From assembly GCF_017114865.1 (NCBI RefSeq), contig NZ_JADEYH010000003.1, forward strand, positions 62,001 to 126,000: 64,000 nucleotides of DNA, given 5' to 3'. Below, one piece after another: positions 27,020-41,499 of this stretch (position 1 is its first letter; the number at the start of each line of letters is the position of its first letter). Below the pieces are notes generated by a model that was given only the letters and a program-made list of their open reading frames with translations, had not been told where the DNA came from and made no database searches. The translations under genes and the position numbers were made by a program. Origin of the DNA: Streptomyces verrucosisporus. GTDB taxonomy: Bacteria > Actinomycetota > Actinomycetes > Streptomycetales > Streptomycetaceae.

Positions 27020-28363
27020 TCAGGCTGTTCCGGCTCCCGCGCGCTCGTGGGCGGCGTCCCCGCCCCCGCCCGGCGGGTCCGGGAGGCGGCCGGGGCCGGC
27101 CCGGCGAGCGCCCCCGGCCGACGGCGCGGTGCCGTCCGCGACCGGTGGGATCCGCCTGAGCCACAGGGGCCCGAGGGTGAGCAGCGCCAGACCGGTCAGC
27201 GGGTACGCCGCGGCCACCACCTGCTCCCACGCCGCCAGGGCCATCGGGGCCGGTGGCGACTCCTGGATGCCGACGAGCATGAAGATCCGGACGGTGAAGA
27301 CCGTGACCAGCACCGCCGTGGCGACGGCGACCGGCAGGGAGCGCGTCCGGTGGGCCCGTACGGCCAGCCAGACCAGCAGCGGGATCACGTAGACCCAGTG
27401 GTGCTCCCAGCTGACGGGCGAGACCAGCAGGCCGGTGACCGCGGTAGCCGAGAACCCCAGGAGATCGGAGCCGCGGCGGAACGCGAGGAGGGCCACGGCG
27501 ATCCCCCACAGTCCGACCACCGCCATGACCAGCAGCCACCAGCTCGCGAACTGCTCGCTGGAGAGCACCCGCGCCATCGCGCCGGCCAGGGACTGGTTGG
27601 GGGTGTCGAAGACACCGCCCGCACGGGAGGAGTGGAGGACCAGGCCGCCCCAGTACCGCGCCGCGTCCCCCGGCAGGACCAGGAAGCCGATGGCCACGGT
27701 GACCAGGAAGGCGGCCAGTGCGTTACGGGCCGCGGCCCAGCGCCGGGTGACGAGCAGGTAGACGATGAAGATCAGTGGGGTGATCTTCAGACCCGCCGCG
27801 ATGCCGATGCCGACACCCCGCAGGCGGTCGGACCGGCGGCTGAAGTCCAGCAGCACCAGCAACAGCAGGAACATGTTGATCTGGCCCGCGATGAGCTGGA
27901 TCCGCACCGGGAGCAGGCAGGCGGCGAGGACGAGCCCGACGACGGTCAGCGCGGACCGGGTCCGGTCGTCGCGCACGCCCGCCATGCCCAGCGACAGCCA
28001 CACCACGGCTCCGAGGGCCACCAGCGAGGCACTGTTCCACACCAGGGCGGCCGCGCCCGCCGGCAGGAACGACAGGGGGACGAAGAAGAGCAGCGCGGTC
28101 AGGGGCGGGTACAGGTAGGGCATCTCCCCGTACAGGGGGGAGATGATGACGAGGTCGTAGAGGGAGGCTCCCTCCCGGACGGTCTCGCCGCTGGCCAGGT
28201 AGACGGTCAGGTCGACCGTCCACCTCTGGCTCCAGTAGTCGTCGCGGGTGTAGATCCAGGACGCGGCCAGGGCCAGCGCCACCGAGACCGCGACGACCGC
28301 GGACCAGGTGAGCAGCGGGCGGCGGTCCCTGCGCCGTTTCGGGGACGTGGTGGGTCGGGGCAT
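27020..28363 (-). CDS. GT87 (DUF2029) polytopic glycosyltransferase
   Basis: This 447-residue protein has about ten membrane helices. After the first helix comes WSQRWTVDLTVYLASGETVREGASLYDL, with the conserved Asp expected to be catalytic. PYLYPPLTALLFF, FDTPNQSLAGAMARVL and SWEHHWVYVIPLL are typical of GT87 alpha-mannosyl/arabinosyl transferases that use polyprenyl-phosphate sugars on the outer face of the membrane. It lies 37 bp after the transglutaminase-like gene and may be cotranscribed with the left part of the biosynthetic cluster. Confidence 0.9.
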   Translation of the reverse strand: MPRPTTSPKRRRDRRPLLTWSAVVAVSVALALAASWIYTRDDYWSQRWTVDLTVYLASGETVREGASLYDLVIISPLYGEMPYLYPPLTALLFFVPLSFLPAGAAALVWNSASLVALGAVVWLSLGMAGVRDDRTRSALTVVGLVLAACLLPVRIQLIAGQINMFLLLLVLLDFSRRSDRLRGVGIGIAAGLKITPLIFIVYLLVTRRWAAARNALAAFLVTVAIGFLVLPGDAARYWGGLVLHSSRAGGVFDTPNQSLAGAMARVLSSEQFASWWLLVMAVVGLWGIAVALLAFRRGSDLLGFSATAVTGLLVSPVSWEHHWVYVIPLLVWLAVRAHRTRSLPVAVATAVLVTVFTVRIFMLVGIQESPPAPMALAAWEQVVAAAYPLTGLALLTLGPLWLRRIPPVADGTAPSAGGARRAGPGRLPDPPGGGGDAAHERAGAGTA

Positions 28364-28400: not shown

Positions 28401-29099
28401 TCAGGCGGAGGCGTCCGAGCCGGCGGCGTCGGCGACCAGTGATCCCCTGGCCGTGGTGTCGCGGCTCTCGAACAGGCGCGGGTGCGCCTGGCGTATGCCG
28501 CCCACGACCAGGTCGTAGGGGACGTCGTCGAACTCCCCGTGCGAGCGGAGGAACTCCATGTGCCTGCGGCCGTCCTCGTCGTACGGGTGGTACATGCTGT
28601 CGCGGCGGCCGTCGAACTCCAGCGGCTTGATCTTGTACAGGCGGCACAGCAGTGCGTTGAACACCGGCGTCGTCCTCACCCACCTCCCGTCCAGCAGGAG
28701 CGTGGTGAGGCTGTGGAAGGTGAAGACCTTGCCGCCCATCAGCTCCTCCAGCTTCGGGGAGGCCAGGTGGTTGCGGACGTCGCCGTAGTAGAGGCGGCTG
28801 GGCACGCCGACCGCCCGCATGGCGGCCGCGTACACGATGGACTTGTGGACGCAGAAGCCCATTCCGCGTCCGATGACCGAACTGGCCCTCAGTCCCTCCC
28901 GGGATAGATCGGCCCCGTAGACCTCGTAGTGGATGCCGTCGCGGACCTCGTAGTAGAGGGCGCGGGCCCGCTCGATGTCGCTCATCCCCCGGCCCCCGTC
29001 GGGCAGGACCCGGTGGACGAACTCCTGTACGGCGTCGCTGTCGTGGTCGAGGAACTCGGTGGCCCTCAGCAGGTGGTCGGTGGCGGTCGGTGCGGTCAT
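28401..29099 (-). CDS. transglutaminase-like domain protein
   Basis: The 232-residue protein has the papain-like transglutaminase core: GMGFCVHKSIVYAAAMRAVGVPSRL with the nucleophilic C83, then FTFHSLTTLLLDGRW with H129. The third position has TTPVFN in place of the usual Asp, as in a common actinobacterial subgroup ending in PLEFDGRRDSMYHPYD. It is 13 bp after the acyl-CoA dehydrogenase, so the two are cotranscribed. Transglutaminase homologues in other pathways (AdmF of andrimid) make amides from carrier-protein thioesters. Here it could release or aminolyse the carrier-bound intermediate, which is inference. Confidence 0.82.
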   Translation of the reverse strand: MTAPTATDHLLRATEFLDHDSDAVQEFVHRVLPDGGRGMSDIERARALYYEVRDGIHYEVYGADLSREGLRASSVIGRGMGFCVHKSIVYAAAMRAVGVPSRLYYGDVRNHLASPKLEELMGGKVFTFHSLTTLLLDGRWVRTTPVFNALLCRLYKIKPLEFDGRRDSMYHPYDEDGRRHMEFLRSHGEFDDVPYDLVVGGIRQAHPRLFESRDTTARGSLVADAAGSDASA

Positions 29100-29112: not shown

Positions 29113-30252
29113 TCACAGTCCGATCATGGTGGCGATGCGCTGGCGCTGGATCTCGGAGGTACCGGAGTAGATGGTTCCGGCGACCGCGTTGCGAAGGTCC
29201 TTCTCCAGGCCGTACTCGGTCGTGTAGCCGTAGCCGCCGAACACCTGGACGGCGGCGAGTGCGGTGCTGACGTTGCTCTCGCTGGTCACCAGCTTGCTGA
29301 TGGCGATGTCGACGGTGGCGTTCTCGCCGGCGTGGAGCTTGTCCGCCGTGTCGTAGAGCCACTTGCGGGAGGTCTCGACGGCCATCGTCATCTCGACGAT
29401 CTTGTTCGCGACCGACTGGTAGGAACCGATCGGCTGCCCGAACTGGGTGCGCGTACGGGCGTACTCCACGCAGCGCTCCAGCCGGTGCTGCATCTCCCCG
29501 AGGTTGATGACGAAGGAGCAGAGGATCTCCCACCTCATCACGTGGTCCAGGATCAGGAACCCGGCGCCGGGGGACCCCACGACGTTCGCCGCCGGGACAC
29601 GGCAGTCGTCGAGGAACAGCTCGCTCAGCGGGGAGGTGCGCAGCCCCATCTTGGAGATGGGCCGGCCCACCGACAGGCCCGGTGTGCCGCTCTCGACCAG
29701 GAACGCGGTGAGCGCCGCCGGACTGCCCTTGCGGCCGGTGCGGGCATAGACGACGAACACGTCGGCCACCGGGCCGTTGGTCACGAACGCCTTGCTGCCG
29801 TTGAGCACGTACTCGTCACCGTCGCGCACCGCCGTGGTGCGCATCGACATGACGTCCGAGCCGCCCTCCGGTTCGGTGATGGCGTGGGCGCCGATCAGTG
29901 AACCGTCGCAGACCCGCGGCAGGAAGCGCCGCTTGAGCTCCGCCGAGCCGAAGCGCTGGACCGGGACACCGGTGCTGACCATGTGCGTCGAGGCGGAGAA
30001 GCTCAGACCGCCGTCCCGGCAGGTGTTCCCCAGGCCCTCCAGCACGTACATCGTGGTGGGCAGGGACTGGCCGAGACCGCCCCACTCCGTGCCGAAGGGC
30101 AGACCCAGCAGGCCCGTCTCCCGCAGCAGTCTCCACGCCCCGGCGGCGAACTCGCCGGCGGCGTCGCGCTCGACGTGCCCCTCGCCCAGCGCCGGGCCCA
30201 GCCGCTCGGCCGCCGCGCGCAACTCGCGCTGCTCGTCGTTCCACACCGTCAC
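29113..30252 (-). CDS. acyl-CoA dehydrogenase acting on a carrier-bound or cyclic substrate
   Basis: The 379-residue flavoprotein has ITEPEGGSDVMSM, GSKAFVTNGPVADVFVV, SKMGLRTSPLSELFLDDCRVP and the C-terminal GGYGYTTEY...IYSGTSEIQRQ. The glutamate normally found in IYEGT is Ser, but E242 in MRWEILCSFVINLG aligns with the helix-G catalytic glutamate of isovaleryl-CoA dehydrogenase. That position is also used by aminoacyl-carrier dehydrogenases. It is downstream of the adenylation gene and upstream of the transglutaminase-like gene. In the proposed pathway it aromatises an aminopyrroline to an aminopyrrole. Confidence 0.88.
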   Translation of the reverse strand: MTVWNDEQRELRAAAERLGPALGEGHVERDAAGEFAAGAWRLLRETGLLGLPFGTEWGGLGQSLPTTMYVLEGLGNTCRDGGLSFSASTHMVSTGVPVQRFGSAELKRRFLPRVCDGSLIGAHAITEPEGGSDVMSMRTTAVRDGDEYVLNGSKAFVTNGPVADVFVVYARTGRKGSPAALTAFLVESGTPGLSVGRPISKMGLRTSPLSELFLDDCRVPAANVVGSPGAGFLILDHVMRWEILCSFVINLGEMQHRLERCVEYARTRTQFGQPIGSYQSVANKIVEMTMAVETSRKWLYDTADKLHAGENATVDIAISKLVTSESNVSTALAAVQVFGGYGYTTEYGLEKDLRNAVAGTIYSGTSEIQRQRIATMIGL

Positions 30253-30319: not shown

Positions 30320-31837
30320 TCACGCCGTGACGGCCGGTCCCGGGGCCGGCTCCGTGTCCGGCCCCGGGCTGCGGAGCCGGCGCAGCGCGTCGCGGTCCAC
30401 CTTTCCGGTGGAGGTCACGGGCAGCGGTTCGTCCCCGATCTCGAACGCCCCGGGGATCGCGGTCCTGGGCAGCGCGGCCGCGCAGTGGACGCGCAGCCCG
30501 AGGCTGTTGAGCGACGAGCCCGGCGCTCGGCGCACCACGGCGTGCAGGACGTTGTCCCCGGCGGCGTCCGGCACCGCCAGGACGACGGCCTCGCCGACCT
30601 GGGGGTGGTCGAGGACGACCCTCTCGACCTCCGCGAGGTTGGTGCGCACCCCGCGGACCTTCACCTGGTGGTCGGCCCGGCCGGTCAGGAACACCAGTCC
30701 CCGCTCGTCGCGGCGCACCAGGTCGCCGGTGCGGAACCAGCCGTCGCGCCACCTGTCCCGGTCCGTCGTCCGGCCGAGGTAGCCGTGCGCCTGGAAGGGG
30801 GTGGACACCAGCAGCTCGCCGGAACCCGCGCCGGCCACCTCGTGGCCTTCGGCGTCCGCGATCCGCACGCCGACACCGTCGATGGGCCCGCCGATCGGCA
30901 CCGCGCCGCCCGACCCGATCTCCTCGGGGGTGATGCGGTGCAGGAAGCTGTCGTTGGTCTCGGTGCAGCCGTACACGTTCCACAGCCGCGCGCCGGGGAA
31001 CGCGGCGGCGATCCGCTCCAGCAGACCGGGCGGGGCGGCGTCCCCGGTGAGCAGCACGTCCCGCGCCTCGGGGAAGACCAGGCCGAGCGCGGCCGCCGCC
31101 TCGGTGACGTGCCGGAAGAACAACGGCACCGCCTGGAGCACGTGCGGTGCGCGGGTGGCGCACAGTTCCGCCAGGCGGGCGCCGTCCACCCCGTGGTCGG
31201 GGTCGACGAGTTCGGCGCAGCCGCCCGCCGCGAGCGTGGCCCACACGTCCAGCAGGCAGAGGTCGAAGTTGAGCGGGGCGTAGTTGAGCACGCGTGTTCC
31301 GGGGCCGATGCCGAAACGGTCCGCCGCCCAGTACATGAAGCGGTCGGCGCCCTGGGAGTCGAGTACCACCGTCTTGGGCGTACCGGTCGATCCGGAGGTG
31401 GTCAGCAGCAGGCCGGCCCCGGGCGGGACCTCCTCGCACTCCCCCCGCTCCCGCGCCGGGGCACCGGAGGGCCGCGCGACGAGGGCGGGGGCTCCGCCCG
31501 GTCCGGTTCCGCCGGCGCTCAGGACGTGCGTACAGCCCGCCCGTGCGCAGAGCGCGGCGAGCGCCCGCGCGCCCAGCCCGGCGGAGGGCAGCAGGACCCG
31601 CCGTCCGGCCCGGAAGCAGGCGATGAGGAGCGCGATGGTCTCCGGGGACTTCCGCGCGGGCACGCACACCGGCGCGCCGTCGGCGATGCGCAGTGCCGTG
31701 AGCTCCGCGTGGGCCGTGTCGGCCCACGCGGCCAGCTCGGCGTACCGCAGTACGCGGCCGTGCCAGGACAGGGCCGGGGCGTCCGGCCGGGTCCGTGCCT
31801 GTTCGGCGAGGAGTTCCGTGAACGATCGGGACGGCAT
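30320..31837 (-). CDS. stand-alone amino-acid adenylation enzyme (AMP-dependent ligase)
   Basis: ATG at 31837 follows GGGAGAG and gives 505 residues. NRPS-type core motifs are present: LLLTTSGSTGTPKTV (A3), NVYGCTETNDS (A5), GELLVSTPFQAHGYLGR (A6), WFRTGDLVRRDERG (A7), GRADHQVKVRGVRTNLAEVE (A8) and STGKVDRDAL with the A10 lysine. No carrier or condensation domain is fused, so it should charge the free carrier protein at 36442-36690. The substrate cannot be read reliably; glutamine is expected from the pathway hypothesis. A terminator precedes it, suggesting its own promoter. Confidence 0.9.
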   Translation of the reverse strand: MPSRSFTELLAEQARTRPDAPALSWHGRVLRYAELAAWADTAHAELTALRIADGAPVCVPARKSPETIALLIACFRAGRRVLLPSAGLGARALAALCARAGCTHVLSAGGTGPGGAPALVARPSGAPARERGECEEVPPGAGLLLTTSGSTGTPKTVVLDSQGADRFMYWAADRFGIGPGTRVLNYAPLNFDLCLLDVWATLAAGGCAELVDPDHGVDGARLAELCATRAPHVLQAVPLFFRHVTEAAAALGLVFPEARDVLLTGDAAPPGLLERIAAAFPGARLWNVYGCTETNDSFLHRITPEEIGSGGAVPIGGPIDGVGVRIADAEGHEVAGAGSGELLVSTPFQAHGYLGRTTDRDRWRDGWFRTGDLVRRDERGLVFLTGRADHQVKVRGVRTNLAEVERVVLDHPQVGEAVVLAVPDAAGDNVLHAVVRRAPGSSLNSLGLRVHCAAALPRTAIPGAFEIGDEPLPVTSTGKVDRDALRRLRSPGPDTEPAPGPAVTA

Positions 31838-31877
31838 GGGGACTCTCCCTTCACGTCGGACGGGCGTGGTGTAGCGG

Positions 31878-31940: not shown

Positions 31941-32741
31941 TCACACCGCGGCGGCCGGGCGGCGGCCCAGGAGCCGGCCGCCGCCCGGCACACCGGCGCC
32001 CAGACCGGTCAGGTCGAGCAGCTTCCACAGGCACGCCTGGTTGGAGGTCACCACCGGTACGCCGAGCGCGTCCTCCAGCGGTTCGACCGCCTCGAAGGAA
32101 CGGAACCCGCTGCCCGGTATCAGCACACCGTCGGCGTCCGCCGGGAACCTCCGGGCGACCTGGCGGCACACCTCGTCGGGGCGCACCTCCCAGCGGCCCC
32201 CGCGGTCGAACAACTGGTGGCGGCGGATCTCGCTCCACTCGTCGTCGAGCTGGTACTGGACCAGGTCGGCGGCGCCCCTGCCGGCCTCCTCCAGATAGCC
32301 GCGCGCGGCGACGAAGGTCGGCGCGGTGAACCACGGCGGGACCACGAGCAGCGGTCGCTCCACACCGGTCTCGGCGAGAGCTCCCAGGATCGCCTGGCCC
32401 GCGGTGTACACCTCGGTGCCGCCCGCCACCTCGCGGGCCGCGGCGGTGAAGCCCTCGTCGAACCCGGCGCCGCCGAAGAAGCTGGCCGAGCCGAAGCACA
32501 GGCAGATCGCGGACAGGTCCATCCGGCCGAGCTGGTGCAGCCCGCGCCGGACGTCCGGCGCGTCCAGCATCTCCTGCCAGGGGGTGCCGGTGTACTCGGC
32601 GCCGTTGCTGGTCGGACTCTCGAACCGGGCCGCGTGGACGGTGACGCCGGCCGGCGCCATGGCCCACAGTTCGGCCTCCACCACGGGGTCGTTGTGGATT
32701 ACCAGGACCCCCAGCTGCGCCACCCAGGAGTGCCGTCTCAT
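31941..32741 (-). CDS. aspartate/glutamate racemase superfamily protein, maleate-isomerase-like
   Basis: This 266-residue protein starts at ATG 32741, overlapping the MFS stop (ATGA). The fold is that of maleate isomerase and arylmalonate decarboxylase: GVLVIHNDPVVEAELW, LSAICLCFGSASFFGGAGFDE near the first catalytic Cys, and the family hallmark PVVTSNQACLWKLLDLTGLG. The first half keeps C80/C82, but the second-half Cys position reads IPGSGF, so the two-cysteine racemase mechanism is not available. In a maleimide-nucleoside pathway it could act on a maleamate or maleate product, or give self-resistance. This is inference. Confidence 0.82.
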   Translation of the reverse strand: MRRHSWVAQLGVLVIHNDPVVEAELWAMAPAGVTVHAARFESPTSNGAEYTGTPWQEMLDAPDVRRGLHQLGRMDLSAICLCFGSASFFGGAGFDEGFTAAAREVAGGTEVYTAGQAILGALAETGVERPLLVVPPWFTAPTFVAARGYLEEAGRGAADLVQYQLDDEWSEIRRHQLFDRGGRWEVRPDEVCRQVARRFPADADGVLIPGSGFRSFEAVEPLEDALGVPVVTSNQACLWKLLDLTGLGAGVPGGGRLLGRRPAAAV

Positions 32742-34192
32742 GACAGCCTCTCCTCCTGGCGGGGGCCGGTCCCGGCCTCCGTGCCGCCGGCGGTCTCCGG
32801 TCCGGGCCGGGCCGCGGCGGTGCGCACCAGGCCGAACCAGGCCAGTGCGGCGCCGAGGAGGGCGGCCACCGCCGTGGCGACGAACGCCCGGCCGAAGTCG
32901 TCCTGTCCGGGGTCGGTGCCGAGCACCAGGACCAGGACGGCGATGCCGAGCGCACCGCTCATGTACTGGGCGGTCGTCATCATCGCGCCCGCCACGCCCT
33001 GGTTGCGGTCCTCGACGTCGGCCGTGCCCGCGATGAACATCACCACGTAGGTGACGCCGTGCGCGAAGCCCGTGACCAGCAGCCCCGGCAGCAGGTCGGC
33101 CACATAGCTGTCCCCCCTGACCTGGAACGCGAGCATCAGCAGGCCCGCGGCGTCGGCGAGGAAGGCCAGTGTGAGGGTGAGCCGGACCCCCAGCGCGTCC
33201 ACCAGGCGGGCCGCCACCGAGTTCGCCACGGTGATGGCCACGGCCATGGGGAGGAACGCCAGCCCGGCGGAGAGCGGACCGTAGCCGCGCAGCTCCTGCA
33301 GCAGCAGTGTCACCACGAAGAACATGTTCCCGACGCTGGCCATGTAGAGCGCCGTCGAACCGCAGCCCACCAGCAGGGAGCGGGTGCGCCGGACCATCGG
33401 GTCCACCAGCGGCCGTTCGCTGGTCCGCTCCCGCAGCACGAACAGGGCCAGCAGCACGGCGGCCGTCCCGAGGGCGGCGAGGGTGCTCCAGTGGGACCAG
33501 CCCCGGCTGGACGCCTGGGTGAGTCCGAGTGCCGCGAGGAGGACCGTGCCGGTGCACAGCACCCCGTTGGGCACGTTGAGGGTGGTGTCGCGGCGGGGCG
33601 CCGCCGTCTCCTTCGGCAGCAGACGGGGCGCGCCCAGGATGCACAGCAGCGCGATGGGCAGGTTGATCAGGAAGATCCAGCGCCAGGAGACGGTGGTCAG
33701 CAGGCCGCCCGTCATCACGCCGGCCGCCAGGCCGGACGCGCCGACGGTCCCCCAGACCGACAGCGCCCGGTTGCGTGCCGGGCCCGCCTCGAAGGAAGTG
33801 TTGATCAGCGCGATGACGGCCGGCTGGAGCATGGCCGCGGCGACGCCCTGGAAGCCGCGGGCGACCAGCAGGACGGCCGTGTCGGAGGCGAGTCCTCCGG
33901 CCAGTGAGGAGACGCCGAACAGCAGCATCGCCGCGATGTACAGGTTGCGGGGGCCGAAGCGGTCCGACGCCCGTCCGCCGACGATGAGGAATCCGGCGAA
34001 GAACACGGCGTAGCCGCTGACGACCCACTGGACCGAGCTCTCGGTCAGGCCGAACTCGTTGCCGACGCTCGGCAACGCGATGTAGACGATGGAGTAGTCG
34101 AGGGCGAGCAGGAACTGCGCCACGGCGAGGATCGCCAGTGCGGCGCGGGTCGCGCCGCGGGACGCGGCGCCGGTGGTGCCTGTCGGAGACAT
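32738..34192 (-). CDS. MFS transporter, DHA2 (14-helix) drug exporter type
   Basis: I chose ATG 34192, eight bases after AAGGA; the ATG at 34201 has no room for a ribosome-binding site. The 484-residue protein has the DHA2 pattern: LDYSIVYIALPSVGNEFGLTESSVQWVVSGYAV, GGRASDRFGPRNLY (motif A), LLVARGFQGVAAAMLQPAVIALI (motif B), and SWRWIFLINLPIALL after motif C. It is the likely exporter of the cluster product and may confer resistance. It sits between the HAD gene (five-base gap) and the overlapping isomerase gene. Confidence 0.93.
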   Translation of the reverse strand: MSPTGTTGAASRGATRAALAILAVAQFLLALDYSIVYIALPSVGNEFGLTESSVQWVVSGYAVFFAGFLIVGGRASDRFGPRNLYIAAMLLFGVSSLAGGLASDTAVLLVARGFQGVAAAMLQPAVIALINTSFEAGPARNRALSVWGTVGASGLAAGVMTGGLLTTVSWRWIFLINLPIALLCILGAPRLLPKETAAPRRDTTLNVPNGVLCTGTVLLAALGLTQASSRGWSHWSTLAALGTAAVLLALFVLRERTSERPLVDPMVRRTRSLLVGCGSTALYMASVGNMFFVVTLLLQELRGYGPLSAGLAFLPMAVAITVANSVAARLVDALGVRLTLTLAFLADAAGLLMLAFQVRGDSYVADLLPGLLVTGFAHGVTYVVMFIAGTADVEDRNQGVAGAMMTTAQYMSGALGIAVLVLVLGTDPGQDDFGRAFVATAVAALLGAALAWFGLVRTAAARPGPETAGGTEAGTGPRQEERLS

Positions 34193-34197
34193 GGGGA

Positions 34198-34902
34198 TCA
34201 TCCTTGGTCGGAGCCGAGTGGAAGGGGGGCGGGGGCCGTGGCCGCCGAGAGCGCCGCGCGCAGTTCGCCGACCGAGCCGGACACCGACAGCGCACCGGCG
34301 TCCATGAGCTGAGGCCGGGTGGCGACCCCGAACCCGACACCGAGGGCCTCCATGCCGGCGCCGCGCGCCATGCGCATGTCGTCCACCGCGTCGCCGACGA
34401 CCAGGCAGCTTCCGGCCGGCACGCCCAGCTCGCCGCAGGCGAGCAGCGCGAGGTCCGGGGCGGGCTTGCCCCGCGGGGCCATGCCGTGGCACGAGAGGGT
34501 GTCGAACGAGTCCAGCAGTCCGGCCGCCTCCAGCAGTTCGACCGCGCTGCGCCGGACCTTGCTGGTGACGACGGCCAGCGGCAGACCGCGGCCGCGCAGT
34601 TCGGCGAGCATCTCCGGCACCCCGGGGAAGACCAGGTCGGCCGCGCTCGGGATCACCGTCTCGGTGAACAGCCGCCGGGCACGCTCCACGGCGCGTGCCA
34701 CCTCCTCGTGCTCCCCGGGGAGCTCCAGGAGGGCGGCGAACGAGGCCGCCAGGGGGCGTCCGACCGTGGCGCGCAACCGCTCCCGGTCCACTTCCCGGCC
34801 CGTCTCCCGCACCACCGTGTCCAGCACCGACGCCATACCGCCGGGGGTGTCGACCAGGGTGCCGTCGACGTCGAAGAGCACCGCTGTGCACGGGCCGCTC
34901 AC
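34198..34902 (-). CDS. HAD superfamily phosphatase
   Basis: A GTG at 34902 overlaps the psuG-like stop (GTGA), giving 234 residues. HAD motifs are complete: DVDGTLVDT with nucleophile D11 and acid D13, VVTSK (motif II), GKPAPD with the motif III Lys, and VGDAVDDM (motif IV). The cap is the C1 helical type of phosphoglycolate phosphatase relatives. C-nucleoside clusters of alnumycin and minimycin pair such a phosphatase with a PsuG-type enzyme. Here it should dephosphorylate the C-ribosyl 5'-phosphate. Confidence 0.92.
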   Translation of the reverse strand: MSGPCTAVLFDVDGTLVDTPGGMASVLDTVVRETGREVDRERLRATVGRPLAASFAALLELPGEHEEVARAVERARRLFTETVIPSAADLVFPGVPEMLAELRGRGLPLAVVTSKVRRSAVELLEAAGLLDSFDTLSCHGMAPRGKPAPDLALLACGELGVPAGSCLVVGDAVDDMRMARGAGMEALGVGFGVATRPQLMDAGALSVSGSVGELRAALSAATAPAPLPLGSDQG

Positions 34903-35846
34903 GCGGCGCCCACCGGGGCCCCGTCGCGGCTCATGGCGACGGCCACCTCGGCCGCGAGCGCGCAGGTGGACAGCAGTACGGAGCGGTTGGCCTCCGCGGT
35001 GCGGCCCTTGGTCGCGGCCGACACCGCGCCCAGGATGCGCGGTGTCATCGCCGGACCGCTGACGCCCTCGCGCTCGGCCTCGGCCTGCTTCTCCCGGATC
35101 AGCGCGTAGATGTGCTCCGAGGGCAGCGCGTCCTGCTCGGCGATCGGGTGGGTGACGACGAATCCGCCGCGGTTCCCGGCCGCCCAGTGCAGGCGGACGG
35201 AGGCCGCGAGCTCCTCCATGTCGTCCGTGCGGCGCGGGTTGGGCCGCCCGCTGGACACGCAGTAGTAGGCGGGGAAGTCGTCGCAGCGATAGCCGACCAC
35301 CGGGACGCCCTGGGTCTCCAGGTACTCCAGTGTCAGCGCCGGGTCCAGTACGGTCTTCGCCCCCGCGCACACGGTGGCGACCCGGTGCCGGGTGAACTCG
35401 ATCAGGTCGGCCGACACGTCGAAGCTGTGCTGCGCGCCGAAGTGCACCCCGCCGATGCCGGCGACCGCGAAGACCTCGATGCCCGCCCGGGCGGCGGCCA
35501 CCAGCCCGGCGGAGACGGTCGTGCCTCCGGGCTTCCGGGAGGCGAGGGCGGGACCGATGTCCCGGGTGCTGACCTTGGGCAGGTCCGGCGTGGTGGCGAA
35601 CCGCTCCACCATCGAGTCGGACATGCCGATCACGAAACGCCCGTCGAGGAGGCCGATGCGGGCGGGCACCGCGCCGCCCGCCCGGATGGCCTTGTGCATG
35701 TCGAGCGCGGTCTCCAGGTTCATCGGGTAGGGCAGACCGTGGGCCACCCCCGAGGACTCCATCGCGACCACCGGCAGCCCCGACGCCACCGCGTCGGCCA
35801 CCTCGTCCGATATCGAGAACAGTTCGGTCCGGTCGTGTGCGGACAT
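34899..35846 (-). CDS. pseudouridine-5'-phosphate glycosidase family C-glycosynthase
   Basis: ATG 35846 follows GGAGGAAGG and gives 315 residues. It aligns over its full length with PsuG (YeiN): AMESSGVAHGLPYPMN with the catalytic E30, KVSTRD with K91, GGVHFGAQHSFDVSADL with H135 and D143, and GAKTVLDPALTLEYLETQG with K164, the lysine that opens ribose 5-phosphate. PsuG enzymes make or break a C-C glycosidic bond to ribose 5-phosphate. In C-nucleoside clusters (AlnA, MinB, SdmA) the synthetic direction is used. No psuK-type kinase is adjacent, so a biosynthetic role is favoured over pseudouridine catabolism. The accepted base may be an aminopyrrole. Confidence 0.93.
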   Translation of the reverse strand: MSAHDRTELFSISDEVADAVASGLPVVAMESSGVAHGLPYPMNLETALDMHKAIRAGGAVPARIGLLDGRFVIGMSDSMVERFATTPDLPKVSTRDIGPALASRKPGGTTVSAGLVAAARAGIEVFAVAGIGGVHFGAQHSFDVSADLIEFTRHRVATVCAGAKTVLDPALTLEYLETQGVPVVGYRCDDFPAYYCVSSGRPNPRRTDDMEELAASVRLHWAAGNRGGFVVTHPIAEQDALPSEHIYALIREKQAEAEREGVSGPAMTPRILGAVSAATKGRTAEANRSVLLSTCALAAEVAVAMSRDGAPVGAA

Positions 35847-36019: not shown

Positions 36020-36394
36020 TCAGTAGTGGGAGTACTCGGCGGCGTCGAAGCTGTGCCGCTCGTCACCTTGCAGCGGCGGGTTGAAGACACTGACGAGCTC
36101 CATGTCCTGGTCGGGCGCGGCGATCAGGAAGTGCTTGTCGTGCTTGTCGAGCGCGTAGAGGACCCCGGGCTCGATCTCGTGCACCGAGCCCTCCTCGGTG
36201 ACCACCTGGCCGCGGCCGGCGATGCAGTAGCAGGCCTCCAGGTGCCTCCTGTAGTGCAGGGGCGACTTCGAGCCGGCCTTCACGACCGTGTGGGCCACCG
36301 TGAAGCCCATCCGGTCCCTCTCGACGAGGAACCGGTAGCTCAGGCCGTTGCCCCAGTCGACGCCCTCGACCTCTTCTTTTCCGCGAACGATCAT
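36020..36394 (-). CDS. ectoine synthase (EctC)-like cupin cyclase
   Basis: The 124-residue protein starts at ATG 36394 after AGGAGGAG. EctC features are unmistakable: RDRMGFTVAHTVVKAGSKSPLHY, RHLEACYCIAGRG, VLYALDKHDKHFL and SVFNPPLQGDERH. The iron ligands of EctC correspond to E53, Y80 and H88, all present. EctC closes N-acetyl-diaminobutyrate to ectoine by loss of water, and has a known side reaction closing glutamine to 5-amino-3,4-dihydro-2H-pyrrole-2-carboxylate. No ectA, ectB or ectD is nearby and the setting is a C-nucleoside cluster, so glutamine or carrier-bound glutamine is the likely substrate. Confidence 0.9.
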   Translation of the reverse strand: MIVRGKEEVEGVDWGNGLSYRFLVERDRMGFTVAHTVVKAGSKSPLHYRRHLEACYCIAGRGQVVTEEGSVHEIEPGVLYALDKHDKHFLIAAPDQDMELVSVFNPPLQGDERHSFDAAEYSHY

Positions 36395-36441
36395 CTTCTC
36401 CTCCTCTTGTGGCCCCGAACGGGACTGACCGCCGTGCCGGC

Positions 36442-36690
36442 TCAGCCGACACGTGCTCCTCGGACGAAGCCCGCGATGGCTTCCACCGAGCTGAACTGGT
36501 GCGGCGCGATATCGAGATCGGCGACCGGGATCCTGTACTCGTCGCCGACCCAGGTGATGAGGCGCAGCAGACCGAGGCTGTCCACCACTCCGTTCTCCAG
36601 CAGGTCGAGATCGGAGGAGAGCTGGTCGGCGGGAACGTCGGGAAGGAAGTTTCCGATGATGAAGCGCTTTATCTCGCCTTCTACGGACAC
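36442..36690 (-). CDS. acyl/peptidyl carrier protein
   Basis: GTG 36690 follows AGAGGA and gives 82 residues. The phosphopantetheine site is S38 in ENGVVDSLGLLRLI, flanked by the four-helix pattern EIKRFIIGNFLP, ADQLSSDLDLLENG and a C-terminal SVEAIAGFVRG. It is a free-standing carrier, presumably loaded by the adenylation enzyme at 30320-31837. It lies 47 bp before the EctC-like gene and is cotranscribed with it. Confidence 0.93.
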   Translation of the reverse strand: MSVEGEIKRFIIGNFLPDVPADQLSSDLDLLENGVVDSLGLLRLITWVGDEYRIPVADLDIAPHQFSSVEAIAGFVRGARVG

Positions 36691-36992
36691 GGTTATCCTC
36701 TCGTGGGTTTCACGGATCCGGGCGGGCCCATGGCCGTGCGGGACGGTTCACGGACGGAATGGGGACGGGCCGCGCAGGCCCGGGGGGCCCGGGGGGCCCG
36801 GGGGGCCCGGGGGGCCCGGGTGCCGTCGCAGGCACCGGGCGGTGCGGGCGCGGAGCCGGGAGCGGGGATCACGGGGCACCACTGCCCGGCGCGGACTGTT
36901 CGGCATACGCGTGTCCTCACTACGAGGCGGTCGGGGGGACGGGCGCGGCCGCGCCCGGGGCGGAACACACGGGAGAACCGGGGGCCGAGCCG
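36691..36992. other. gene-free stretch with a GC repeat inside the cluster
   Basis: This 302-bp gap lies between the carrier protein and the ornithine-cyclodeaminase homologue, both leftward. It contains a G6C3 repeat (36779-36820) and probably a promoter for the carrier-cyclase-psuG unit close to 36700-36760. Gly/Pro-rich frames through the repeat are composition artefacts. Confidence 0.55.
36779..36820. repeat. tandem 9-bp GGGGGGCCC repeat
   Basis: Four consecutive copies of G6C3, with flanking CCC and GGG, make a 42-bp self-complementary stretch. It could fold on either strand and is prone to slippage in replication and to sequencing error. Confidence 0.85.
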
Positions 36993-37898
36993 TCAGCCGG
37001 GTGAGGGGACGCCCAGGCGGTGTCGCAGCGCGGCCCGGTGGATCCGTTCCGCGAGCGCCAGATCCAGCCTCATGTGCGAGGCCGCACCGCTCAGGAGCTC
37101 CACCAGCAGGATGTGGTCGGCGCAGGCACGGCCGGGGTGCTCACCCGTGAAGACCTGGCGCAGGTCGGCCTCGACGCCGAGGTGTTCCTGCGCCGGAGCG
37201 GAGGGGCCCGCCGCGGCCCCGGAGCGGGGGCAGCCGCACCCGGCCCCCTCCAGCAGGCCGAGATCGTCGACGTAGACGGCGCTGACGCAGCCCGCCATCT
37301 CCGCCGGCAGACCGCGGCCGGTGGCGTTGACCAGTACGGACCCCGGCGCCAGATGGCCCAGACACAGTTCGTTCACGACCGGCTCCGTGACGACGACCAG
37401 ACTGGCGCCGAACGTGGCCTCCGCCGCGCGCCGGGTGACGGTCAGTCCGATGCCCGTCGCCTCCAGGGCACCGGCGACCCCGTGGTCGACCGGTGAGTCG
37501 CGCCGGCCCCCCGGCGAGTGGACGGCGATGTGGCTGACGTCCGGTACGCTGCGCGAGATCACCAGCAGCTGTATGCGCCCCGCGGTGCCCGAGCCGATCA
37601 GCGAGACCGTCACCACCCCGGGGTCCAGCAGCTGGTTCGCCGCCAGCGCGGTCAGGGCGGCGGTCCGGCAGGCGTACAGGCCCGACGCCGGCAGCTCGCA
37701 CAGGTCGCCGGCGCGGGGGTCGCGTAACACCACCGTCGGGCCGCGCAGTTCCAGTAAGCGTCCGCCCGGCCCGCCGGGCCGGGCGGGGCCGTGGTCAGGG
37801 TGTGCCAGCAGTTCCTCGGCAGCCGCCTCCGCGGGGTCGAAGTCGGAGACGAGGGCGCACAGGTCCTCCGTGTCCAACCTCAGAAAGTGACTGTCCAT
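36993..37898 (-). CDS. ornithine cyclodeaminase / mu-crystallin family protein
   Basis: ATG 37898 gives 301 residues, shorter than the usual 320-350. It has the family substrate segment LYACRTAALTALAANQLL, the NAD-binding VSLIGSGTAGRIQLLVI (Gly-rich loop at residues 102-107), and LVVVTEPVVNELCLGHLAPGSVLVNATG. Members are NAD(P)-dependent cyclodeaminases or imine reductases. In this cluster it could supply or recycle a cyclic imine precursor of the pyrrole ring. It is the first gene of the leftward biosynthetic run and is divergent from the small peptide gene. Confidence 0.83.
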   Translation of the reverse strand: MDSHFLRLDTEDLCALVSDFDPAEAAAEELLAHPDHGPARPGGPGGRLLELRGPTVVLRDPRAGDLCELPASGLYACRTAALTALAANQLLDPGVVTVSLIGSGTAGRIQLLVISRSVPDVSHIAVHSPGGRRDSPVDHGVAGALEATGIGLTVTRRAAEATFGASLVVVTEPVVNELCLGHLAPGSVLVNATGRGLPAEMAGCVSAVYVDDLGLLEGAGCGCPRSGAAAGPSAPAQEHLGVEADLRQVFTGEHPGRACADHILLVELLSGAASHMRLDLALAERIHRAALRHRLGVPSPG

Positions 37899-38086: not shown

Positions 38087-38278
38087 ATGTCCGCCAGCCG
38101 GCAGCTCACCGCCACGCTCCTCATCGCACTCGCGGCCGTCCTCGGGCCGGCCGCCGCGGGCATGGCGCCCCAGGCCGGGCCGCAGGTGACGGCGACCGGG
38201 GCGGCGGAGGGCGACTGCCCGGCGGACACCCGCGAAGGTTCGGTCACGGGCGGCTGCACGGACGACACCCACTGGTGA
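38087..38278 (+). CDS. small secreted peptide precursor
   Basis: ATG 38087 follows GGGGAGA and gives 63 residues. Residues 1-25 form a signal peptide (MSASRQLTATLLIALAAVLG, then AAAGMA). The mature part is short and acidic, with two Cys about 13 residues apart and ending TDDTHW. It is the only rightward gene of the cluster region, divergent from the cyclodeaminase homologue and convergent with the SARP gene. I do not recognise it. A disulfide-closed extracellular peptide is possible. Confidence 0.65.
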   Translation: MSASRQLTATLLIALAAVLGPAAAGMAPQAGPQVTATGAAEGDCPADTREGSVTGGCTDDTHW

Positions 38279-38346: not shown

Positions 38347-41300
38347 TCACATGGCGGCGGGACCGCCGACCTCGGTGCCCGAGCCGAGCAGTTCCGCCGC
38401 CGGCAGATCCGGATGGGCGGCCCGGAGCTCCGCCAGGAGCTTCGCGGACTCCCGTGAGTCGACCGACGACAGCAGCCGCACGGCACCCTCCAGGTCGTGC
38501 CGGGCGAAGGCGCCCTCGGTACGGGCCTCCGACAGCAGGATGAGCGCCTTGGCCTGCCAGAGCGCCGAGCCCAGTGTCCCGAAGATCTCCTGTGCCGCCA
38601 CCAGATGACCGGCGGCGCTCGTACCGCCCCCACGGGCCAGCGCGATCTCGCCGAGCGCGTACAGCGCCTTCGCCTCGATGAGCCGCTCCCCCACCCGGCG
38701 GGCCAGTCCCAGGGCGTGCGCGAGGGTGGTCTCGGCGGTGTCCAGCCGGCCCTCCCTGTGCCGCAGCAGCCCCAGGCCGTAGACCACGTGGACCTCCCCG
38801 ATGCGGTCACCGGTGTCACGCACCATGCGCAGCACCCGGTGCAGTGCCTGCCGGGCGAGGTCGATCCGGCCGGTGGCCATGTACAGCTCGGCGAAGCGGT
38901 GCACGATCTGCACCTCCACCCTCGGGCACGACACCTCCCGGCATATGGCCAGGGCCTCCTCCAGCAACCTGCCCGCGGTCTCCGTGTCCCCTTCCCCCAT
39001 GTGGAACTTGGCGAGGCTGCGCAGGATGTGCGCCTCCCCCACACGGTCGCCGACGGCGCGCATCGTCCGGAGCGACTCGCCGTACTTGTCGAGCATTCCG
39101 CGGATGTCGCCGTACAGACCGTCGATGTGCGCGGCGTTGCGCAGCACCAGGGCGCAGCCGTGCGCCTCACCCTCCGCCCGGAAGAGGGCGAGCGCCGCGT
39201 CGAAGCAGTGCCGCGCGTCGGCCATCTGGGTCTGGAACATGTGCAGGGTCCCCAGGGAGTACAGCATCGCCGCCGTGCCCGTGCGGTTGCCGGCCCGCTC
39301 GGCGGCCTCCCTGGCGACCGTGGCGCACTCGCGCCAGTCGTCGAAGTAGCCCTTCGCCTCGAAGAGGGTGACCGCGGTCAGTGCCAGATCCCAGCACAGC
39401 TCGTCCAGCCCGGCATGCGCGGCCTGCCGCACGGCCGCGGTCAGGGCGCGCCGCTCCGCCTCCCACCAGTACGCGGGATCGCCGACGCCGTCCGCGTCCC
39501 AGCCCCCCGCCGGGCGCCAGCGCGGAGCACCACCGTGCAGGATCGTGTAGTCCCCGCCGTACTCGCTGCGGTGCGCCTCCTCGGCCAGGGCCAGCCAGCC
39601 GCCCAGGAGACGGGACATCGCCGAAGCGCGCTCGTGCTCGTCCTCGTCCGCCAGCAGCCGCTCCCCGGCGTAGATCCGTATGAGGTCGTGGAAGCGGTAA
39701 CGCGGTGCACAGACACCCGGGTACACCACGACGTCCAGCAGCTGCGCGTCCACCAGTGTGTCCAGGAGCTCCCTGCCCTCGGCCAGCGGGACGTCGAGCA
39801 TCGCCGCCGCGGTCCAGTCGGGGAAGTCGAGGACCTTGACCATGGACAGAAGGCGGAACAACCGAGCGGCGGACTCGCCGAGACCCCGGTGGGCCAGCTC
39901 CATGTTGGACCTCAGCTCCAGCCCCTGATGGGCCAGCTCGTCCAGCCTGCGCGCCTCGTCGCGCAGCCGCCTCACCAGGCCCTCGATCTGCCAGTGGGGC
40001 CGTGAGGCCAGCCGCGCCCCGGCGATCCGCAGTGCCAGCGGCAGACCGCCGCAGAACGTCACCAGTTCCACGGCCGCCTCGCGCTCCGCCTTCACGCGGT
40101 CCTCACCCGCGATCCTGGCAAGGAGCTCGATGGACTTGTCGACGTCGAACACGTCTATGTCGAGCCGGTAGGCGCCGGTCAGACCGCCCAGGCGCCTGCG
40201 GCTGGTGGTGATCACCGCACAGGTGGGGCTGCCCGGCAGCAGGGGCCGCACCTGCTCCTCCGAAGGGGCGTCGTCGAGCACCAGCAGCAGCCGCCTGCCC
40301 GACAGCTTGCTGCGGAAGAGTTCGGCGCGTTCGTCCGTGTCCTCCGGCACCGCGGTGCCCGGGACCCCGAGGGCCCGCAGGAAACGGGCGAGAAGCCGGG
40401 CCGTGCGGTCCTCTCCGCCGGGGATTCGCATGTCCGCGTAGAGCTGCCCGTCGGGGAAGAGGGCGCTCAGCTCGTGCGCGGCCCGTACCGCGAGACTGGA
40501 CTTGCCCACTCCGCCCTTGCCGGAGATCGCGACGATCGGCACGCTCCAGCGCGGTCCGTCCTCCTCGTCCCTTCCCGTCAGGATGCTCTTGATCTCACCC
40601 AGGTATCCCTCACGCCCCGTGAAGTCGGCGATGGTGGGCGGAAGTTGCCGAGGGACGAGCGCCTTCCCCTCCGCGTACGGGCCGGCGGGGCGCTGTTCAC
40701 GGGCGCCGGATCCGGGAGGACGGGACGGGAGGGGGCGCGAATCCGCGGGCAGGTCGAGCGACGGGTCGCGGTTCAGGATCGCCCGGGTCAGTTCCTGGAA
40801 CTCCTGGCTGGGCTCGACGCCCACCTCCTCCACCATCACGGTGCGTGCGAGGCGTCCCGCCTCCAGCGCCTCGGCCTGGCGGCCCGCGCGGTACAGCGCC
40901 AGCATCAGAAAACGGTGGAGCCGCTCGCGCAGCGGATGTTCAGCCACCAATGCGCGTAATTCGTGACTGATCTCCTCGTGCCTGCCCAGCACGAGGTCGA
41001 GCCGCACGAGTTCCTCGACGGCGGCCATCCGCCGGTCCTCCAGGACGGTGGCCCCGCGCCGCGCCACCCCGCTGAGGACACCGGCGAGCGCGGTCCCCCG
41101 CCAGAGGGCCAGCGCTTCGCGCAGCACCGCGGCGGCCCGCTCCTCGCGTCCCTCGTCCGCGTGCCCGCGGGCCTCGGCCACCAGCGCGGAGAACCGCAGG
41201 ACGTCGAGCTCCTCACGGCCGCTCCTCAGCATGTATCCGGGCTGACGCGTGGTGATGGCGTCGGGGCACCCGGCGTCGGAGAGGATTCTGCGCAGCGCGG

Positions 41301-41499
41301 AGATGCAGGTCTGTATCTGCCCGCGGGCCGTGGAGGGGGGATCGGTCTCCCATACGGCGTCGATGAGCTGCTCGACGGGGACGACGCGGTTCGCGTTGAG
41401 GCCCAGCACGGCCAGTACGACACGTTGCCGGGGGCCCCCGAGGTCGATCGACCGACCGTCCGCCACAAGTTCGACCGGACCGAGGAGCCTCAGGTCCAT
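38347..41499 (-). CDS. AfsR/SARP family transcriptional regulator with NB-ARC and TPR
   Basis: The 1050-residue protein has a winged-helix trans_reg_C domain (residues 1-95, LGGPRQRVVLAVLGLNANRVV and RGQIQTCISALRRIL) and a bacterial transcriptional activation domain (97-242). An NB-ARC ATPase follows, with P-loop GKGGVGKSS at 327-335 and the LLLVLDDA Walker B, then a long TPR array from about 700 to 1040. It is an AfsR-like SARP and the probable activator of the adjacent cluster. Codon 181 is TTA (40957-40959), so its translation, and hence the pathway, may need the bldA tRNA. Confidence 0.95.
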   Translation of the reverse strand: MDLRLLGPVELVADGRSIDLGGPRQRVVLAVLGLNANRVVPVEQLIDAVWETDPPSTARGQIQTCISALRRILSDAGCPDAITTRQPGYMLRSGREELDVLRFSALVAEARGHADEGREERAAAVLREALALWRGTALAGVLSGVARRGATVLEDRRMAAVEELVRLDLVLGRHEEISHELRALVAEHPLRERLHRFLMLALYRAGRQAEALEAGRLARTVMVEEVGVEPSQEFQELTRAILNRDPSLDLPADSRPLPSRPPGSGAREQRPAGPYAEGKALVPRQLPPTIADFTGREGYLGEIKSILTGRDEEDGPRWSVPIVAISGKGGVGKSSLAVRAAHELSALFPDGQLYADMRIPGGEDRTARLLARFLRALGVPGTAVPEDTDERAELFRSKLSGRRLLLVLDDAPSEEQVRPLLPGSPTCAVITTSRRRLGGLTGAYRLDIDVFDVDKSIELLARIAGEDRVKAEREAAVELVTFCGGLPLALRIAGARLASRPHWQIEGLVRRLRDEARRLDELAHQGLELRSNMELAHRGLGESAARLFRLLSMVKVLDFPDWTAAAMLDVPLAEGRELLDTLVDAQLLDVVVYPGVCAPRYRFHDLIRIYAGERLLADEDEHERASAMSRLLGGWLALAEEAHRSEYGGDYTILHGGAPRWRPAGGWDADGVGDPAYWWEAERRALTAAVRQAAHAGLDELCWDLALTAVTLFEAKGYFDDWRECATVAREAAERAGNRTGTAAMLYSLGTLHMFQTQMADARHCFDAALALFRAEGEAHGCALVLRNAAHIDGLYGDIRGMLDKYGESLRTMRAVGDRVGEAHILRSLAKFHMGEGDTETAGRLLEEALAICREVSCPRVEVQIVHRFAELYMATGRIDLARQALHRVLRMVRDTGDRIGEVHVVYGLGLLRHREGRLDTAETTLAHALGLARRVGERLIEAKALYALGEIALARGGGTSAAGHLVAAQEIFGTLGSALWQAKALILLSEARTEGAFARHDLEGAVRLLSSVDSRESAKLLAELRAAHPDLPAAELLGSGTEVGGPAAM

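Follow-up and report, generated by a model that had tools for sequence, protein, structure and literature searches.

A divergent EctC-like protein of Streptomyces verrucosisporus as the likely glutamine cyclase of a showdomycin-type C-nucleoside cluster

What is the role of an ectoine synthase-like protein whose gene lies beside that of a free carrier protein, with none of the other ectoine genes around it? This question is raised by one locus in the window (hereafter, the whole 64,000-nt stretch of Streptomyces verrucosisporus DNA that was analysed). The gene at 36020..36394 (minus strand) encodes an EctC-like protein of 124 aa, which matched the Pfam family Ectoine_synth (PF06339) over residues 1-117 with 122.8 bits (cut-off 27) and the NCBIfam "ectoine synthase" model PRK13290 with 141.1 bits (cut-off 128). 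The closest sequences in the PDB were ectoine synthases (best E 1.4e-25), and when the AlphaFold model (mean pLDDT 92.7) was compared with PDB structures the eight best matches were again ectoine synthases, at 1.1 to 1.5 Å rmsd (1.2 Å for 5onm). The iron ligands of P. lautus EctC are Glu57, Tyr84 and His92 (PMC6344544), and E53, Y80 and H88 of the window protein aligned to them, in agreement with the original prediction. The EctC-type motifs that it listed were read as RHLEACYC, YALDKH and VFNPPL, and the carrier protein gene it had placed 47 bp ahead was found at 36442..36690 (minus strand), upstream and with exactly that gap.

The claim that ectA, ectB and ectD are missing held for the cluster and failed for the genome, as ORFs for ectA, ectB, ectC and ectD lie together on contig C1. 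With a full ectABCD elsewhere in the genome, the protein at 36020-36394 is thus a second, divergent EctC, 38-39% identical to the EctC of the host's ectABCD.

The genes around it are all on the minus strand and are given here in the direction of transcription. A SARP/AfsR-type regulator of 1050 aa (38347..41499; PF03704 BTAD and PF00931 NB-ARC) comes first, followed by an ornithine cyclodeaminase/mu-crystallin-family protein (hereafter, OCD-like; 36993..37898; PF02423, 31.4 bits, cut-off 24) and the free carrier protein (PCP) of 82 aa, which cleared the PF00550 cut-off only narrowly (21.2 vs 20.8 bits) and carries Ser38 in VVDSLG, a serine column conserved in 95% or more of the 78 proteins aligned. 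Beyond the EctC-like gene lies a PsuG/AlnA-type C-glycosynthase of 315 aa (34899..35846; PF04227, 332.5 bits), whose PDB neighbours are pseudouridine-5'-phosphate glycosidase and AlnA; its E30 and K164, which we take to be the catalytic residues of the family, are conserved in 13 of 13 aligned proteins. A HAD phosphatase of 234 aa (34198..34902; PF13419, 105.5 bits) and an MFS exporter of 487 aa (32738..34201; PF07690, 162.4 bits), which may serve export or self-protection, precede an arylmalonate-decarboxylase-family protein of 266 aa (31941..32741; PF17645 Amdase, 58.8 bits, cut-off 25.9), which matched arylmalonate decarboxylase in the PDB at E 6.7e-12 and may act in decarboxylation or detoxification. 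The stand-alone adenylation enzyme (A-domain) of 505 aa follows (30320..31837; PF00501, 161.8 bits when scored as a somewhat longer ORF, 30320-31846), and then an acyl-CoA-dehydrogenase-family protein of 379 aa (29113..30252), assigned to the prolyl-carrier-protein dehydrogenase kind by its nearest NCBIfam models, PigA (376.8 bits) and RedW (367.2 bits), both below their cut-offs (500 and 650 bits), and by its PDB match to prolyl-ACP dehydrogenase 4irn (E 1.2e-93). A transglutaminase-core protein of 232 aa (28401..29099; PF01841, 51.2 bits) has one Cys and one His column conserved in 95% or more of the 61 proteins aligned, and a PDB search gave no relative of it at E 0.1. The last gene, a possible cluster edge, encodes a GT87 glycosyltransferase (27020..28363; PF09594, 163.2 bits).

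Smaller features were also seen between these genes. Between the SARP and OCD-like genes, the opposite strand encodes a peptide of 63 aa (38087-38278, plus strand) that begins like a signal sequence and ends in CTDDTHW; it has a relative in locus L003, and weakly similar, diverged versions that carry DTHW motifs were seen in L004 and L008. Upstream of the PCP gene, at 36777-36820, a 9-bp unit made up of G and C only, GGCCCGGGG, is repeated perfectly in tandem, in 4.9 copies.

For showdomycin, made by the sdm cluster of S. showdoensis ATCC 15227, PMC8724604 describes a cyclase, SdmE, that converts L-glutamine to 2-amino-1-pyrroline-5-carboxylate (ADPC), an activating enzyme, SdmC, and a carrier, SdmD, followed by oxidation, hydrolysis, the C-glycosynthase SdmA, the phosphatase SdmB and non-enzymatic steps, and calls the pathway incompletely understood. 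The window cluster shares with it a putative glutamine cyclase, the stand-alone A-domain, the PCP, an oxidation step, the YeiN/PsuG-like C-glycosynthase and the phosphatase, and by family matches each enzyme kind named for showdomycin has a candidate gene here; this likeness is one of enzyme set, not of sequence, and the published cluster comprises 16 genes over 12.2 kb (PMC8724604). The cluster is therefore likely to make a C-nucleoside of the showdomycin type, with the EctC-like protein as its glutamine cyclase and, by role, the presumed counterpart of SdmE. That SdmE is itself EctC-like would follow from the shared gene set; the text of PMC8724604 lacks the word "ectoine".

In this strain, the iron cupin would close L-glutamine to ADPC, and the stand-alone A-domain would activate ADPC and load it onto the free PCP, where the PigA/RedW-like dehydrogenase would oxidise the carrier-bound ring to a 2-aminopyrrole. 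A hydrolase, perhaps the transglutaminase-like protein, would then free the 2-aminopyrrole from the carrier, and the PsuG-type enzyme would make the C-C bond between it and ribose 5-phosphate. Finally, the phosphate would be removed by the HAD enzyme and the ring would become a maleimide, with a showdomycin-type C-nucleoside as the expected product. The primary showdomycin study of Ren et al. 2021 reportedly has 2-aminopyrrole-5-carboxylate as an intermediate.

The idea that the EctC fold was recruited to cyclise glutamine into a five-membered amidine is thus probably right, as it fits a neighbourhood that corresponds to the reviewed showdomycin enzyme set. The chemistry originally suggested is nearly as published, and what it overlooked are the C-glycosynthase, the phosphatase, the adenylation enzyme and the dehydrogenase; because these adjoin, the amidine is probably an intermediate that is oxidised to the aminopyrrole and then joined to ribose. 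The reaction was also said to be known from ectoine synthase alone, as a side activity. The EctC of H. elongata forms ADPC from L-glutamine in a weak side reaction of very low efficiency (PMC5924519), but a dedicated cyclase is already proposed in PMC8724604, so this part has to be given up. Glutamine cyclisation of this kind is already proposed in print, and the window probably holds a further showdomycin-type cluster, adding a likely producer of such a C-nucleoside.

The window may also differ from sdm, as its OCD-like, transglutaminase-like and arylmalonate-decarboxylase-like genes are unmentioned in the passages of PMC8724604 on sdm. A trpF gene is reported near the showdomycin cluster (PMC13055916), whereas TrpF-like queries found no match in the window or in the 12 C-glycosynthase loci described below. 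The prodigiosin-type pyrrolyl-carrier cassette consists of a prolyl-AMP ligase, a PCP and a prolyl-PCP dehydrogenase, and the window cluster likewise has a dissociated A-domain and PCP (the latter barely above its Pfam cut-off), together with a dehydrogenase nearest to that type although below the curated cut-offs; here, however, an EctC-like cyclase is added and the ring would bear an amino group. Alnumycin AlnA and PsuG belong to the same C-glycosynthase family as the window enzyme but have a different ring partner, and AlnA too has a phosphatase partner, AlnB (PMC8724604). Unlike them, the window C-glycosynthase is set in a cluster with EctC, A-domain, PCP and dehydrogenase genes.

Relatives of the locus were collected by a scan of 84,980 species genomes, which gave 415 stretches, 382 of them encoding relatives, and the best 80 were kept. 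The HMMs used to count genes were derived from these very loci, at thresholds of >300 bits for the A-domain, >250 for the dehydrogenase, >150 for ectB and >100 for ectD. Streptomyces radiopugnans has the most closely related cluster, with an EctC 90% identical; no S. showdoensis record was among the best 80 of the 382 loci, a set from which the window's own genome and very near ones may have been excluded. S. showdoensis possesses a class II drimenol synthase, DMS (PMC12365925), and the window's genome gave no match to PF13249, a model that may miss that enzyme. A total of 77 of these 80 loci had the PCP, 78 the A-domain and 78 the dehydrogenase, with all three in 75 (the other five are L009, L030, L055, L065 and L080); as the loci are the nearest relatives, 75/80 is no rate for orphan EctCs. 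The transglutaminase-like gene was found in 60, the decarboxylase-like gene in 29 and the C-glycosynthase in 12. Neither ectA, ectB (>150 bits) nor ectD (>100 bits) was found in any of the 80, the distant ectB-like matches in L021 and L037 reaching 124 and 118 bits. Canonical EctC controls had ectA and ectB in 10 of 10 cases, and a PCP, A-domain or dehydrogenase in none of the 10. The eleven-gene order from SARP to the transglutaminase-like gene was the same as in the window in seven of the 12 C-glycosynthase loci; L006 keeps this order without SARP and OCD in the retrieved stretch, and L010, L056, L059 and L064 have a different one.

The same C-glycosynthase loci bear on a different end product. 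The showdomycin steps could be combined with trimming, retention of the carboxylate or further glycosylation of the C-nucleoside through the OCD-like, decarboxylase-like and GT87 proteins, a tentative possibility that we hold to be rather unlikely. The arylmalonate-decarboxylase-like gene does recur in all 12 loci, and the OCD-like gene in seven of 12, as does SARP, whose position in the gene order is unchanged there; GT87 was also matched in seven, mostly partially, as in five of them the best piece was just 88-253 residues long. The core set is nevertheless complete for showdomycin, and GT87 may be a mere neighbour. The arylmalonate-decarboxylase-like and OCD-like proteins have no evident place among the showdomycin steps.

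The A-domains of the related loci were compared at ten specificity positions, mapped with our own anchors in 76 proteins (75 loci plus the window). By this mapping, the window A-domain has the code DLLQLTVDSK and the consensus is DLLQ[LIVMA]T[VIL]DSK with few exceptions: Asp235, Thr301 and Lys517 were found in all 76, Leu236, Gln278 and Asp330 in 75, Ser331 in 74 and Leu239 in 73. The code may resemble those of prolyl ligases. Being nearly invariant, it suggests that one substrate is common to the A-domains of these loci.

The EctC tree (152 rows, 129 columns, midpoint-rooted, with 34 of 146 inner branches open) has one clade of 92 rows (support 98/93) that takes in every one of the 80 rows carrying the gene set, the window's among them; 67 of these 80 lack the C-glycosynthase and 13 have it. 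The other 12 rows of the clade are those of L009, L030, L055, L065 and L080 and of seven loci without the set (L088, L092, L095, L103, L115, L116 and L118). All 11 rows linked to ectAB fell outside. The C-glycosynthase rows are not one group, as ten, counting the window's, cluster together (eleven if the short contig L009 is added), whereas those of L056, L059 and L064 lie elsewhere.

Alignment to P. lautus EctC showed what the clade keeps and what it changes. The cupin fold, the iron ligands and the Arg25, Thr40, Tyr52 and Phe106 positions are shared between ectoine synthase and the window protein, and the ligands are conserved in 92 of 92 clade rows and in 11 of 11 ectAB-linked proteins. The window protein differs in its separate clade, in lacking EctA, EctB and EctD neighbours and at the Trp21 and Asn38 positions. 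The former is Gly17 here and Gly in 92/92 clade rows against Trp in 11/11 ectAB-linked proteins, in an alignment that is unsure at this point, with a gap there and a nearly invariant Trp14 nearby in the clade. In P. lautus EctC, Asn38 is the residue in contact with the carboxylate of the substrate (PMC6344544), and its position is Ala34 in the window protein, Ala, Thr or Cys in 92/92 clade rows, and His in 10 and Ala in one of the 11 ectAB-linked proteins. Since Asn38 is itself His in 10/11 of the latter, the two positions are a weak criterion for ectoine production. Among the 48 orphan rows outside the clade, Trp is kept at the first position in eight and His or Asn at the second in ten, the second being Ser in 22/48 and Thr in 12/48 of these set-less proteins.

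The loss of the carboxylate contact in all clade rows, as if the carboxylate were not free, together with the carrier gene that adjoins the cyclase gene, would suit a cyclase acting on Gln-S-PCP, with the A-domain activating glutamine itself. We consider this unlikely. Orphans outside the clade are often changed at Trp21 and Asn38 too, with Asn or His frequently replaced by Ser or Thr, and one of the 11 ectAB-linked proteins also has Ala, so such changes are no proof of a carrier-bound substrate; in addition, cyclisation is placed before activation and loading in PMC8724604, and Asp330, in 75 of the 76 A-domain codes, could pair with an amidine. A normal ectoine synthase, surviving as a leftover or spare copy, is a very improbable reading and was rejected, because, although the EctC fold and iron ligands are present and a solitary P. 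syringae EctC gave ectoine in an H. elongata ectC mutant (PMC5924519), the genome already has a full ectABCD whose EctC belongs to another clade and is 38-39% identical, 75 of the 80 nearest loci retain the gene set, which is not expected of a leftover, and both the Asn38 and the (less surely aligned) Trp21 positions are changed.

Glutamine cyclisation for a carrier-bound aminopyrrole remains the preferred reading, and the loci that carry the gene set may point beyond showdomycin. When each of the 80 loci was assigned once, with the precedence C-glycosynthase, TrpD-like, deaminase-like, TrpB-like, there were 12 with the C-glycosynthase, 27 with a TrpD-like gene (>200 bits), ten with a deaminase-like gene (>90 bits), 22 with a TrpB-like gene (>500 bits) and nine with none of these. 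The branch proteins were named by Pfam and NCBIfam from one to three representatives each; the TrpA-like and TrpB-like ones are above the curated NCBIfam cut-offs and the TrpD-like and TrpF-like ones below. The weak TrpB-like matches (about 30-60 bits) in C-glycosynthase loci were rejected as TrpB, the match in the window being only the transglutaminase-like ORF. All ten deaminase-like loci also have a DsbA-like gene. This deaminase-like, DsbA-like and arylmalonate-decarboxylase-like branch lies near the EctC genes at L043:12271-15070 (plus strand) and in nine more of the 80 loci, and eight of the ten are proteobacterial.

The EctC-like, A-domain, PCP and dehydrogenase genes may form a transferable unit, a module whose product, carrier-bound 2-aminopyrrole-5-carboxylate, would enter pathways of four or more kinds, with the Trp branch leading to a tryptophan isostere and the TrpB-like branch joining the pyrrole to serine; we see this extended proposal as evenly balanced between right and wrong. 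One 2-aminopyrrole building block would then supply several branches; the small gene set itself does recur next to other, uncharacterised genes of bacteria. As the showdomycin pathway itself is known, this possible supply of several branches by one module is the part worth following.

The Trp-like branch was found in 29 loci with a TrpD-like gene (27 of the best 80 plus the sampled L087 and L089). All 29 had a TrpA-like gene (>200 bits) and a TrpC-like match, two of the latter weak and at the locus end (43 and 66 bits), and 26 had a TrpF-like match (absent in L055, L076 and L080). The TrpA-like proteins of the module loci conserve LELAVPFP.S..DG, which we take to be the TrpA stretch with the catalytic Glu and Asp. 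Ten genomes from these 29 loci were examined, and all ten had a strong TrpA (at least 227 bits) and one or more divergent TrpA, as well as a strong TrpC and a divergent TrpC within about 5 kb of the divergent TrpA. Judged from these sequences, 2-aminopyrrole would replace anthranilate, and a pyrrolo[2,3-b]pyrrole would be assembled by the divergent TrpD, TrpC and TrpA, in most loci along with TrpF, on the way to a pyrrolopyrrole isostere of tryptophan. A tryptophan isostere from a Trp-like pathway may have been reported already. In a search of the open-licence literature, neither the Trp-like branch nor a 2-aminopyrrole module was the subject of any paper listed, and the module with its Trp-pathway paralogues points to products absent from the papers searched, perhaps a tryptophan isostere. 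The queries for this branch had no matches in the window. Its genome has a second, divergent TrpA-like gene at G000:C43:13813-14490 (plus strand; 154 bits vs 263 for the main one), and the two EctC matches of the genome are on other contigs.

The function of orphan EctCs has been called unresolved (PMC5924519, PMC6344544). To place the module among them, weaker EctC matches were sampled from the window's class (296 genomes), a second class, that of a Vibrio genome (369), and a third, that of a Leisingera genome (385), as 40 neighbourhoods in 32 genomes drawn evenly from the three. The window copy, the two class centres (L043, L061), matches below about 60 bits and six third-class places in genomes with other EctC matches (G786, G976, G886, G783 and two in G1052) were excluded. 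The PCP, A-domain and dehydrogenase occurred together in four of the 40 neighbourhoods, three of ten in the window's class, one of ten in the second (L104, which is L045 and already among the 80 loci) and none of 20 in the third; in 13 of the 40, the retrieved stretch reaches less than 4 kb beyond the match in one direction, and genes of the set could have been missed there. That all orphan EctCs belong to the module was thus rejected, and the module explains only one clade of them. To that clade it would, if the proposal is true, give a concrete role, and the conserved module with its almost invariant A-domain code makes the reaction testable.

Other arrangements of EctC-like genes were noticed among these matches. 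In the Leisingera genome's class, EctC-like domains occur in tandem arrays, several in double-domain ORFs, with eight within 3.3 kb at G976:C81:35-3343 and others in G1007:C106, G783 and G1052; ectA and ectB were unmatched in the retrieved stretches. The EctC rows of L117, L119, L121, L122 and L125 are in a separate clade of 27 rows. In L092 and L095, members of the 92-row clade without the usual set, an A-domain match comes directly after EctC, and at L092:9909-14013 an AMP-binding enzyme after EctC is followed by another acyl-CoA-dehydrogenase-family protein, perhaps a variant of the module.
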